Assembly (NCBI RefSeq): GCF_900182705.1
Contig: NZ_FXTP01000002.1
Location: 1 to 64,000, forward strand
Reading direction: 5' to 3'
DNA: 64,000 nucleotides
From: Gracilimonas mengyeensis
Lineage (GTDB): Bacteria; Bacteroidota; Rhodothermia; Balneolales; Balneolaceae
Made by a program: the position numbers and the translations under genes. A model generated the notes under the pieces. It saw only the letters and a program-made list of their open reading frames with translations, did no database searches and had not been told where the DNA came from. Of the stretch, positions 39,248 to 46,170 are shown piece after piece (the first letter of the stretch is position 1; each line of letters opens with the position of its first letter).

Positions 39248-39366
39248 ACCCCACCTCTGCCATTTTGATCAGCAATTCTGCCACCGCTTCAAAAGCGTCA
39301 TAATCACTTTGTCAGCTTCAAATAGCAGTCTGAAATTTCATCAGCATTTTTTGCCCGACTGTCAGG

Positions 39367-39383
39367 ACTGCTTTCAGAGCAGT
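39367..39383. promoter_or_regulatory. Palindrome upstream of the sigma-54 promoter
   Basis: ACTGCT-ttcag-AGCAGT, a perfect 6-bp inverted repeat with a 5-bp spacer, ends 4 bp before the -24 element of the hsp20 promoter. It could bind a repressor or activator; it is closer than typical sigma-54 enhancer sites. Confidence 0.4.
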
Positions 39384-39386
39384 TTA

Positions 39387-39404
39387 TTGGCACATGCCTT
39401 GCAA
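39387..39404 (+). promoter_or_regulatory. Sigma-54 (RpoN) promoter of hsp20
   Basis: TTGGCACATGCCTTGCA matches the -24/-12 consensus TTGGCAC-N5-TTGCW. The invariant GG (39389-39390) and GC (39401-39402) are exactly 10 bp apart. Transcription would start near 39414, about 45 bp before the hsp20 ATG. No other site this good was noticed in the window. Confidence 0.78.
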
Positions 39405-39458
39405 TATTACTTGTGAATTTTTGAAACAAAGAAATCAAAATTAACAGCGAGGTTAGTT

Positions 39459-39887
39459 ATGGCACTTATCAATTATACCCGACCAAACTTAGACGTTCAG
39501 AACAAACGATTCAGTGACATCTTAGACGAATTCTTCAACGATTCACTGAAATACCGCAATGATTCTTTCACTCCCAGTGTAGATATCTCAGAAACCGAAG
39601 AGAATTTTGAAGTTTCTGTAGCACTACCGGGAATGAATAAAGATGATATTCAGGTAGATCTTGAAAATGGTCGCCTGACTATTAGCGGTGAACGCAAATT
39701 TGAAAATGAAGACAAAGGCAAAAACTACCATCGTGTAGAATCCGGATTCGGAACCTTTAGCCGTTCCTTCCATCTGCCCGATACGGTAGACGAAAGCAGC
39801 ATTTCCGCCAAATACGAAAATGGCGTACTGAACATCACTATTGCCAAGAATGAAGAGAAAGTTAAAAGACAGATCGAGGTATCGTAA
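39459..39887 (+). CDS. Hsp20/alpha-crystallin small heat-shock protein
   Basis: ATP-independent holdase chaperone. 142 residues with a short N-terminal arm (DVQNKRFSDILDEFFNDSL), an alpha-crystallin domain at about 38-130 (PSVDISETEENFEVSVALPG, GRLTISGERKF, GTFSRSFHLPD, YENGVLNI), and a C-terminal extension where the I-x-I/V motif is poorly conserved (KRQIEVS). It is the first of a proteostasis group with degQ and clpB. The sequence points to sigma-54 control. A terminator follows, so it is monocistronic. Confidence 0.93.
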   Translation: MALINYTRPNLDVQNKRFSDILDEFFNDSLKYRNDSFTPSVDISETEENFEVSVALPGMNKDDIQVDLENGRLTISGERKFENEDKGKNYHRVESGFGTFSRSFHLPDTVDESSISAKYENGVLNITIAKNEEKVKRQIEVS

Positions 39888-40044: not shown

Positions 40045-41547
40045 ATGAATACGACCGTTCGAAATATATTCGGGGTGGCTGCAGCAATATTGGTATTGCT
40101 TGGAGTAAACATAGCCACCGATAATATTAATGGAGCCTTCAATGGAACAGAAAAGGAAGGTAATGTCGACTCAGTAGTAAACACAGAAAAACCAACACCT
40201 GCGGAAAACCGATCTGTAGCATCTCTAAAAGATTTTAATGATGCTATTGTAGACATCGCTGAAAAAACCAACCCGGCGGTAGTTACCATCACCACCAAGC
40301 GTACCCAGGAAATAAGAAGAGTAAATCCTTTCTCCCAGTTTTTTGGGATGCCACAAGGTGAAGGACAAACTCAAGAGCGTATTCAGCGTGGGCTGGGATC
40401 CGGAGTGATTGTCTCTGAGGATGGTTATATCCTTACCAACAACCACGTGATTGATAACACCGATGAGATCACTGTACGGATGTACAGTGGCGAAGAAGTG
40501 GAAGCCGAACTGATAGGCACCGATCCACAAACTGATATTGCGGTGCTGAAAGTAGAAGAAAATAACCTGCCGGCAGTAACTTTAGGTAACAGCGACAACC
40601 TGAAAGTAGGCTCTTTTGTATTGGCTATCGGTAGTCCGCTGAGTGAAAATTTAGCACACACCGTATCCTTCGGTATTGTGAGTGCACGGGGCCGTTCGCT
40701 TACTAACCTGACAGCATATGGTGATTACATCCAGACTGATGCCGCTATCAACCCTGGAAACTCCGGAGGAGCCCTTATTGATGTGAACGGGCAACTGGTA
40801 GGCATTAACTCGGCTATAGCATCCCGCTCGGGCGGTAATGATGGTATTGGCTTTGCGATCCCTGCAAACCTTGCCAAGCGTATTATGGATGATTTAGTTG
40901 ATGACGGTGAAGTTAGCCGTGGCTACCTGGGCATGACAATGGGCGGTGAAGTAGATCAAACCATGGCTAAAGCTTTAGACCTGGATGATACCCGCGGAAT
41001 CATGGTAGGAAGAGTAGAAGAGGGCAGTCCGGCCGAAAATGCGGGTTTACAAGCTGAAGATGTAATCGTATCTTTGAACGGTGAGGAGATAAGAAACTGG
41101 GACAACTTCCGAACAAGCATTGCATCATTCAAACCCGGAGACGAAATAACACTGGGTATTGTTAGAGACAATGACAATATGGAACTGGAAGTAACGTTAG
41201 GTGAACGTCCCGATGATGCAACAGCATCCGCTTCTTCTCAGGATAAAGATGATTTAAATGAGCGATTAGGTTTCACCGTTACTGATTTGACTGCTGAAAT
41301 AAGAAGACAGTTGGATCTCGAAAACGAAACGGAAGGCGTTATTGTTAGGAATGTACGCCAAGGCAGCGATGCCTTTGAACGAGGACTCAGAAGAGGAGAT
41401 GTAATCACTTCTGTAAACAAGAATAAAATTGATTCATCCGATGAATTTTATTCTCAGCTTGAACGTTCATTATCTGAAGAAGACAACGTTGTACTATTGA
41501 CAGTCCTCCGTAACGACGTGAAACAATACCTGGCTTTTGAACTATAA
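40045..41547 (+). CDS. degQ: Do/DegQ-family periplasmic serine protease (HtrA)
   Basis: Envelope protease/chaperone. 500 residues: an N-terminal signal anchor (IFGVAAAILVLLGVNIA), the trypsin-like domain with the catalytic His of LTNNHVID, Asp of DIAVLKV and Ser of NPGNSGGALID, then PDZ1 (about 290-385, GYLGMTM and EGSPAENAGLQ) and PDZ2 (about 400-500, GVIVRNVRQGSDAFERGL). DegP/DegQ/DegS cannot be separated firmly; two PDZ domains exclude DegS. It has its own leader with a weak IR (GCTTGT/ACAAGC at 39956-39977), and two terminators follow. Confidence 0.92.
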   Translation: MNTTVRNIFGVAAAILVLLGVNIATDNINGAFNGTEKEGNVDSVVNTEKPTPAENRSVASLKDFNDAIVDIAEKTNPAVVTITTKRTQEIRRVNPFSQFFGMPQGEGQTQERIQRGLGSGVIVSEDGYILTNNHVIDNTDEITVRMYSGEEVEAELIGTDPQTDIAVLKVEENNLPAVTLGNSDNLKVGSFVLAIGSPLSENLAHTVSFGIVSARGRSLTNLTAYGDYIQTDAAINPGNSGGALIDVNGQLVGINSAIASRSGGNDGIGFAIPANLAKRIMDDLVDDGEVSRGYLGMTMGGEVDQTMAKALDLDDTRGIMVGRVEEGSPAENAGLQAEDVIVSLNGEEIRNWDNFRTSIASFKPGDEITLGIVRDNDNMELEVTLGERPDDATASASSQDKDDLNERLGFTVTDLTAEIRRQLDLENETEGVIVRNVRQGSDAFERGLRRGDVITSVNKNKIDSSDEFYSQLERSLSEEDNVVLLTVLRNDVKQYLAFEL

Positions 41548-43530: not shown

Positions 43531-46170
43531 ATGAATTTGAATAAATTTACTTTAAAGGCACAGGAAGCCGTACAAAAGGCACTGGAAATAGCCCAGGGAG
43601 AGAACAACCAGGCGGTGGAGCCTGCTCATATCCTGAAAGCATTTTTAAGTGACAGTGAGAGTATTGTAAACACTCTGCTGGATAAGTTGGGAGCCAACAG
43701 TCAGGGTATTGGAAATGCATTAGACAGTATCATAGCTCGTTTGCCCAATGTACAAGGGGCTTCGGTGACGGGACAATACCTGTCCAATACCAGCAAAGAG
43801 GCTTTCGATAAAGCCCAGAAACAAGCCACTGAAATGGGCGATGATTACATCAGCTCGGAGCACGTACTGATTGGTCTTACCCAGGTGAAGGGTGAAGTGA
43901 GCAGCGTGTTGAAAGATCAGGGTGTGACCAAGGATAACATCCTGAAAGTATTAACGGATGTACGCGGTAACCAATCGGTGGATGACCCCAATGCAGAAAG
44001 TCGCTACGGAGCCCTCAAGAAATACGGTCGTGATCTGAACGAGCAAGCAGAAAAGAATAAGTTGGACCCGGTGATTGGCCGTGATCAGGAAATCCGGCGC
44101 GTGATGCAGATTTTATCCCGCCGAACCAAAAACAACCCGGTGTTGATTGGCGAGCCCGGCGTGGGTAAAACCGCCATCGCCGAAGGTATGGCGCTGCGTA
44201 TTGTGCGGGGGGATGTACCCGAAGGTCTCAAGTCCAAGCGTATTGTAGCCTTGGATATGGGATCACTGGTAGCCGGAACCAAATTCCGGGGTGAGTTTGA
44301 AGAACGCCTGAAAGCCATCGTGAAGGAAGTGACCGAATCCGACGGGGAAGTGATCCTGTTTATTGATGAGATTCATACCCTGGTGGGAGCCGGTGCTACT
44401 GAAGGTGCCATGGATGCCGCCAACATTCTGAAGCCGGCTCTGGCCCGTGGTGAACTGCATGCCATAGGCGCCACCACGCTGGACGAATACCGTAAGCACA
44501 TCGAAAAAGACAAAGCCCTGGAGCGACGCCTGCAAACGGTGCTGATTAATGAGCCCTCGGTAGAAGATACCGTATCCATCCTTCGTGGATTGCAGGAACG
44601 CTACGAGGTGCACCACGGGGTTCGTATTAAAGATGCTGCGGTGGTGGCTGCAGCCGAGCTTTCACACCGTTACATCGGCGATCGTTTTCTGCCGGATAAA
44701 GCCATTGACCTGATTGACGAGGCCGCTTCCCGTTTGCGATTGCAGATTGACTCGTTGCCGGAAGAACTGGATGCGCTGGAGCGACAAATCCGTCAGCTTG
44801 AGATCGAACGCGAGGCCCTGAAGCGAGAGAAAGATGAATCCAAGATCGAAGGCATCGAAAAAGAACTGGCCGATTTGGAAGAGCAGCGCAAAACCATGCA
44901 CGTGCAGTGGGAGAAAGAACGTGACTTGATCCAGAAAGTGCGCGAATTAAAGCAGGTGATAGATACTACCCGCAACGAAGCCGACAAAGCCGAGAGGCAG
45001 GGCAACTACGAAAAAGTGGCTGAGTTACGCTACGGTACTATCGCCCAGCTGGAAAATGATCTGAAAGAATCGCAGGCCAAGCTGGATGATATGCAGGAAA
45101 ATCAATCCCTGCTAAAAGAGGAAGTGGATGCTGAAGACATCGCCGATATTGTAGCGCGCTGGACCGGCATCCCCGTCCGCAAGATGTTGCAGAGTGAGCG
45201 TAAGAAACTGCTCCACCTGGAAGAAGAATTGCACAAGCGAGTTGTTGGTCAGGATAAAGCCATTGAGGCCATTTCTGATGCCGTACGTCGCTCCCGTGCC
45301 GGTTTGCAGGATGAACAAAAGCCGATTGGGTCGTTTTTCTTCCTTGGCTCTACCGGGGTTGGTAAAACCGAGCTGGCCCGTTCGCTGGCTGATTTCCTGT
45401 TTAATGACGAGCAAGCCATGATCCGCATTGATATGAGTGAGTACATGGAGAAACACAGCGTGAGCCGTTTGGTAGGTGCGCCTCCGGGATACGTGGGCTA
45501 CGATGAAGGCGGACAACTAACCGAAGCTGCTCGCCGGCATCCGTATTCTGTAATATTGCTGGATGAGATCGAGAAAGCCCACCCGGATGTGTTTAACATC
45601 CTGCTGCAGGTGCTGGATGAAGGTCGCCTGACGGACAATAAGGGCACCACGGTGGATTTCAAAAATACCATCATCATCATGACTTCCAACATTGGTTCGC
45701 ACCTTATTTCTAATGAAATCGAGAAAACCGGCGGCGATATGACGGACGAGAAATACGAAGAGCTGCAGAACAAGCTGATTGATCAGCTGAAGCAGACTAT
45801 TCGTCCTGAATTCCTGAACCGTGTGGACGACACCATCGTATTCCACCCGCTGGGCAAAGAGCATATCCGGTCAATAGTGGATATTCAACTGCGCCGTGTA
45901 CACGAGATGCTCGGTAAAAACGAAGTGACGCTGGAGGTCCCCGAAAAAGTTAAAGACTGGCTGGCTGAGCGTGGATACGACCCGGTATACGGAGCTCGTC
46001 CGTTGAAGCGGGTAATCCAGCAGAACATTACCAACAGGCTGGCTACTCTGCTCATTAGCCGTGATGAAGAAGGTCCGGTGCACTTTGAAGCTACCATGGC
46101 GAAGAATGGCGAGTACATAGATTTTGCCGAGGTGGTGGAAGATGTAGATGCCTGGGCGGAAACGGATTAA
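43531..46170 (+). CDS. clpB: ATP-dependent disaggregase ClpB
   Basis: Hexameric AAA+ chaperone that pulls proteins out of aggregates together with DnaK. 879 residues: N-terminal Clp repeat domain (about 1-150), AAA1 with GEPGVGKT near 208, the long coiled-coil M domain (about 405-530), AAA2 with [18 protein letters not shown] near 610, and the C-terminal D2 small domain. No ClpP-binding IGF/L loop was noticed, as expected for ClpB. A good ribosome site (AAGGAGA) precedes ATG 43531. The stop TAA lies inside the first unit of a heptamer array, and a terminator follows at 46210. Confidence 0.96.

Follow-up and report, generated by a model that had tools for sequence, protein, structure and literature searches.

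Small heat-shock genes are more usually controlled by sigma-32-like factors or HrcA, and the hsp20 gene described here raises the question of whether RpoN controls it and, if so, which other genes and which activator share that control. The window is a stretch of 64,000 nucleotides from Gracilimonas mengyeensis (family Balneolaceae), part of a 4.67-Mb draft genome in 33 contigs (G000:C2). A first-pass annotation had noted TTGGCAC-N5-TTGCA about 55 bases before the hsp20 start codon, with GG and GC ten bases apart, and this reads as described (Table 1). Its further suggestion, that RpoN links protein stress to another signal, fared less well.

The hsp20 promoter and its conservation

The core of the element, TGGCAC-N5-TTGCA, spans positions 39388-39403, and 55 bases separate its -12 box from the ATG at 39459. 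If the C of GC is taken as -12, transcription of hsp20 would start near 39414, the position expected in the first-pass annotation. An HtrA-like protease (40045-41547) and ClpB (43531-46170), both named from sequence, adjoin hsp20 on the same plus strand. They were discarded as regulon members, with sites all below 9/11.

Table 1. Features upstream of and including hsp20, in window coordinates
Feature	Start	End	Strand	Remarks
CTGCCA repeat, proposed activator site	39257	39262	+	CTG.CA invariant in 10 genus members
CTGCCA repeat, proposed activator site	39278	39283	+	CTG.CA invariant in 10 genus members
TTGTCAG repeat, proposed activator site	39309	39315	+	TGWCA enriched upstream of hsp20
TTGCCCGACTGTCAG, proximal conserved block with TGTCA	39351	39365	+	TTG.CC and TGTCA invariant in 10 genus members
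Palindrome ACTGCT-N5-AGCAGT	39367	39383	+	Not conserved (alignment); probably without role
-24 element TTGGCAC	39387	39393	+	TGG and A invariant in 10 genus members (alignment)
-12 element TTGCA	39399	39403	+	TTG and final A invariant in 10 genus members (alignment)
Predicted start region	39414	39417	+	Placed from the -12 box; TGAA invariant in 10 genus members
hsp20 gene, 142 residues	39459	39887	+	Open reading frame; Pfam HSP20, E 1.1e-26

By itself, the pattern is only modestly rare, and it is conservation that carries the case. The window contains three matches to TGGCACNNNNNTTGCW with at most one mismatch, where shuffles give 2.25; the hsp20 site is the sole exact one. Genome-wide, TGGYAYNNNNNTTGCW, a strict pattern that covers strong members only, has 25 matches against 14 for the reversed pattern (about 1.8 times), with 16 of its matches overlapping an open frame. 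We collected the regions upstream of hsp20 from 54 of 57 genomes, the window's own included (30 nearest and 24 further; G045, G047 and G052 were left out), and found the element conserved before orthologous genes, with at least 9/11 at 48 of the 54 loci. All 30 of the nearest loci reach at least 9/11 and 27 reach at least 10/11, against 7.6% and 0.33% of dinucleotide shuffles; the further 24 do so in 18 and 11 cases, against 9.3% and 0.87% of shuffles, with the caveat that counts across genomes are not independent, because the genomes are related. The modest genome-wide excess is what one might see if the match arose by chance and an ordinary promoter transcribed hsp20, but such recurrence in near and distant relatives makes that explanation extremely improbable.

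Six loci fall below 9/11: those of G012, G030, G040, G053 and G054, each at 8/11, and that of G017 (L124), which is probably another hsp20 paralog (42% identity) and was counted as a miss. Two further paralogs of hsp20 have the element at 9/11 or better, the second at 8/8 and the third at 7/8 of the loci read.

The genome of the window encodes RpoN, with the AID, CBD and DBD domains in one protein, and Sigma54_DBD is above cut-off in 54 of 57 genomes. One genome counts against our main explanation: G012 (98% complete) has no Sigma54_DBD match, though its groES promoter is kept. This is probably a gap in the assembly; its congener G030 has the match. Conservation, rpoN and three strong matches to the sigma-54 interaction domain (see below) together support the sigma-54 control of hsp20 that the first-pass annotation had predicted from the letters.

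Other chaperone genes and an apparent exchange with HrcA

The genome-wide matches include chaperone genes: 5 of the 25 strict matches stand before three hsp20 genes, groES and grpE, and dnaK follows one of these hsp20 genes at about 100 bases. Another two lie inside the flagellar-type cluster of contig C19. The same promoter type precedes the other main chaperone genes, apparently in place of the HrcA repressor. From sequence comparison, we think it likely that hsp20 is transcribed by RpoN polymerase as one member of a sigma-54 chaperone regulon, which would comprise groES, grpE and all three hsp20 genes, including the one with dnaK behind it. Proteins of the activator family, on which a connection to another signal would depend, are present. 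Since the promoter type recurs before groES, grpE and the remaining hsp20 genes, sigma-54 seems to be the means by which chaperones themselves are controlled, and not a connection between protein stress and an unrelated signal. In addition to groES, the window's genome has a second, divergent match to the Cpn10 family (G000:C3:236117-236422, E 3.5e-11), and so do many relatives.

HrcA was found in 15 of the 57 genomes, and in none of the 34 from the Balneolaceae, the window's own included; it is also missing in 6/6 genomes of genus g24. Among 19 genomes reached through named loci, four have it (Salinibacter, an uncultured record, Neomarinimicrobiota and an Ignavibacteriales record). We sought groES and grpE in 28 chosen genomes of the 57 and found them in 25 and 27, respectively. 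CIRCE was called at 14 or more of the 18 positions of its consensus, and a repeat in this comparison means TG[ATG]CA within the 330-base upstream stretch. On this scale the window's genome has no CIRCE, with best matches of 10 of 18 before hsp20 and groES and 9 of 18 before grpE.

The two systems show an inverse pattern. Before groES, a sigma-54 site with a repeat is present in 15/19 HrcA-negative genomes and CIRCE in 0/19, whereas CIRCE is present in 6/6 HrcA-positive genomes, one of which (G034) has both. At the groES locus of G034, L161, a CIRCE-like sequence matching 16 of 18 positions is combined with a 9/11 site of sigma-54 type that has three repeats upstream, possibly an intermediate between the systems. 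Four HrcA-negative genomes (G010, G039, G042 and G045) fail the sigma-54 test at groES, and this, like the pass of HrcA-positive G034, counts against the main explanation. Before grpE, the sigma-54 site with a repeat is found in 18/20 HrcA-negative and 0/7 HrcA-positive genomes, and in the latter grpE lies directly behind hrcA in 7/7. Among individual grpE loci, L187 (G018) has a 10/11 site with TGTCA upstream, and L191 (G012) has TGTCA at -58 and -27, but these lie beyond the 330 bases used, and the locus entered the count as a miss. After genera were collapsed by hand, the p values from Fisher's test are 0.03 (groES) and 0.0005 (grpE), which still contain common descent. The hsp20 promoter is of sigma-54 type in both groups (36/40 HrcA-negative, 12/14 HrcA-positive), and we infer that hsp20 may be the older sigma-54 member, while groES and grpE would have changed hands. 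In 4 of the 15 HrcA-positive genomes we also looked upstream of hrcA itself for either type of site; the best matches there were 8/11 for sigma-54 and 10/18 for CIRCE, and the idea was dropped.

Upstream repeats and a candidate activator

The palindrome to which the first-pass annotation had drawn attention is present, but it is not the conserved element: it occurs in 0/9 aligned congeners, and for lack of conservation among the 10 genus members it was rejected as an activator site. What is conserved upstream of hsp20 are CTGNCA/TGWCA repeats. The TGNCA cores of the window begin at 39258, 39279, 39310 and 39360. In the alignment of the 10 genus members, TTG.CC.....TGTCA precedes the promoter in all and CTGAAATTTC..CA is conserved in most. 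Of the 17 anchored sites with at least 9/11 in the window, the hsp20 site alone has TGWCA in the 130 bp upstream. Counting one locus per genus, and only loci with at least 9/11, TGWCA occurs within this distance of hsp20 in 28/28 genera (66 sites against 11.2 in shuffles, maximum 20) and of grpE in 11/11 (13 against 2.5, maximum 7). For groES, where the GG/GC anchor was not required and some HrcA-positive genomes were included, it occurs in 14/16 (26 against 5.9, maximum 12).

These repeats are the proposed binding sites of an activator. Upstream of hsp20 they peak near -90 and -30 from TGG, and the second position is close for a classic enhancer site, which counts against the activator-site reading. 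It could be that the -24/-12 element is real and the repeats serve another DNA-binding protein, for instance a repressor, since a repeat near -30 stands close to the polymerase. In 5/12 relatives (L080, L083, L084, L086 and L095), TGWCA is also found 23-33 bases ahead of the candidate activator gene described below, there without a sigma-54 site and possibly for self-repression. Against this, the repeats are common to the hsp20, groES and grpE promoters alike, and we regard another binding protein as unlikely.

Three proteins in the genome of the window match Sigma54_activat strongly. One is an NtrX-like response regulator (C1) with a full activator domain and a receiver. Another is a receiver-type protein with a full activator domain in the C19 cluster, whose genes we take to be flagellar-type from their sequences. 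The third, of about 430 residues, is encoded beside lptE and has AAA+ and HTH domains without a receiver or other N-terminal domain. Two exact sigma-54-like sites lie in the C19 cluster that encodes the receiver-type activator (G000:C19:63998-64321; L069, L070, L043).

The lptE-linked protein is, on present comparisons, the most likely activator of the hsp20 promoter. It matches at E 1.1e-139 or better in 52/57 genomes, and its GAFTGA, Walker and arginine-finger-like motifs are intact. G024 and G029 have no other strong Sigma54_activat match, although a second activator may be missed because these genomes are 96% and 90% complete; their hsp20, groES and grpE sites all reach at least 9/11, and the grpE upstream region of G024 has no repeat. 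The hsp20 promoter might instead answer to the NtrX-like or the flagellar-type protein, and through it to a two-component or motility signal, close to what the first-pass annotation had in mind. Both are encoded in the genome of the window, with full activator domains plus receivers. Yet G024 and G029 keep the promoters without a strong match to either, and the C19 protein sits among flagellar-type genes that have sigma-54-like sites of their own. This option seems to us somewhat less probable still than the one involving another binding protein.

The neighbourhood of the lptE-linked gene also touches the chaperones. Of 80 named loci, 75 have lptE next to it, and 9 have groES within 10 kb, in some other Bacteroidota and all among the 48 loci L235-L282, a number that may be too low because contig ends cut many of the 80. 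The genes of L264, L268, L275 and L278 run activator, lptE, another gene, secG-like, groES and groEL (names assigned from reading frames), and in some loci a miaB-like gene precedes the cluster. HrcA was found in 0/9 of the genomes with this proximity. Of the nine groES upstream regions, seven reach 9/11, six with GG in place, and TGTCA or TGACA is visible in most; several -12 halves are weak, and in L269, L275 and L279 the GG-anchored sites all stay below 9/11. Sigma-54 autoregulation of the activator gene was rejected: the window's genome reaches 7/11 at best there, and none of 12 relatives exceeds 8/11.

By sequence, the solved relatives of the candidate are NtrC-family proteins, ZraR, FleQ and PspF. 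It shares with PspF, of the sigma-54 activator (NtrC) family, the AAA+ domain, the Fis-type HTH and the lack of an N-terminal sensor, but it scores below the curated PspF cut-off (TIGR02974, 299.4 against 443.55 bits). In the predicted structure of a close relative (mean pLDDT 79), the AAA+ domain is followed up by a long helix (287-321), a disordered part and the HTH; unlike PspF, the candidate has a 120-residue linker with this long predicted helix.

A proposed mechanism and its relation to known systems

A closed RpoN polymerase would wait at the -24/-12 element of hsp20, and an AAA+ activator, most likely the lptE-linked protein, would bind the upstream CTGNCA/TGWCA repeats and open the complex using ATP. 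As this activator lacks a recognised sensor domain, it is likely to be controlled by a partner or by its own amount. PspA controls PspF, and if the partner here were a chaperone, the result would be the kind of feedback that heat-shock control calls for, which we offer as a proposal only, with heat or unfolded protein as the presumed signal. In lineages without HrcA, this sigma-54 system would act on groES and grpE where sister families have HrcA/CIRCE. The two have in common groES and grpE as targets, in families of the same order; they differ in that HrcA represses at an inverted repeat, whereas here ATP-driven activation is proposed and HrcA was not found in the window's family. Extended to the Bacteroidota as a whole, the proposal becomes tentative, a serious possibility that we would not yet favour: one sensor-less AAA+ activator beside lptE, in part of the phylum within an lptE-secG-groES-groEL cluster, might read TGWCA repeats, be held by a chaperone and freed when unfolded protein occupies that chaperone, and have taken over from HrcA/CIRCE in lineages that lost HrcA.

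A sigma-54 promoter of E. coli ibpB was reportedly described by Kuczynska-Wisnik et al. in 2001. Passages of PMC4316790 and PMC4370416 cite it, placing it upstream of ibpB only, in addition to a sigma-32 promoter that serves the ibpAB operon. The likeness is a sigma-54 promoter before a small heat-shock gene; as far as those passages go, the present case differs by including groES, grpE and hsp20-dnaK, by the conserved repeats and by a different candidate activator. Sigma-54 control of Bacteroidota chaperones is already predicted in print: the covered parts of PMC12316311 (2025) predict such promoters before genes for GroEL, IbpA (COG0071), GroES, GrpE, DnaJ and DnaK in Bacteroidota and Planctomycetota, with enrichment in the former. 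The string 'Balneol' is absent from its text, and those parts name no activator, upstream sites or exchange with HrcA, unlike the present analysis. For sigma-54-dependent grpE and groES it cites reference 80, a paper on a Blattabacterium genome that by its title seems to hold no test of this. Covered passages of PMC3162934 contain nothing on chaperone control in Bacteroidota. In the literature consulted, mostly titles and the starts of abstracts, with subscription papers largely outside, we recognised no description of this activator, of the sites proposed for it or of an exchange with HrcA.

To our knowledge, little is known about how chaperones are controlled in Bacteroidota without HrcA. 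A named candidate activator and defined sites make this control directly testable. The order studied here also offers a before-and-after comparison, on the same genes, of a passage from HrcA repression to what would be ATP-driven activation.
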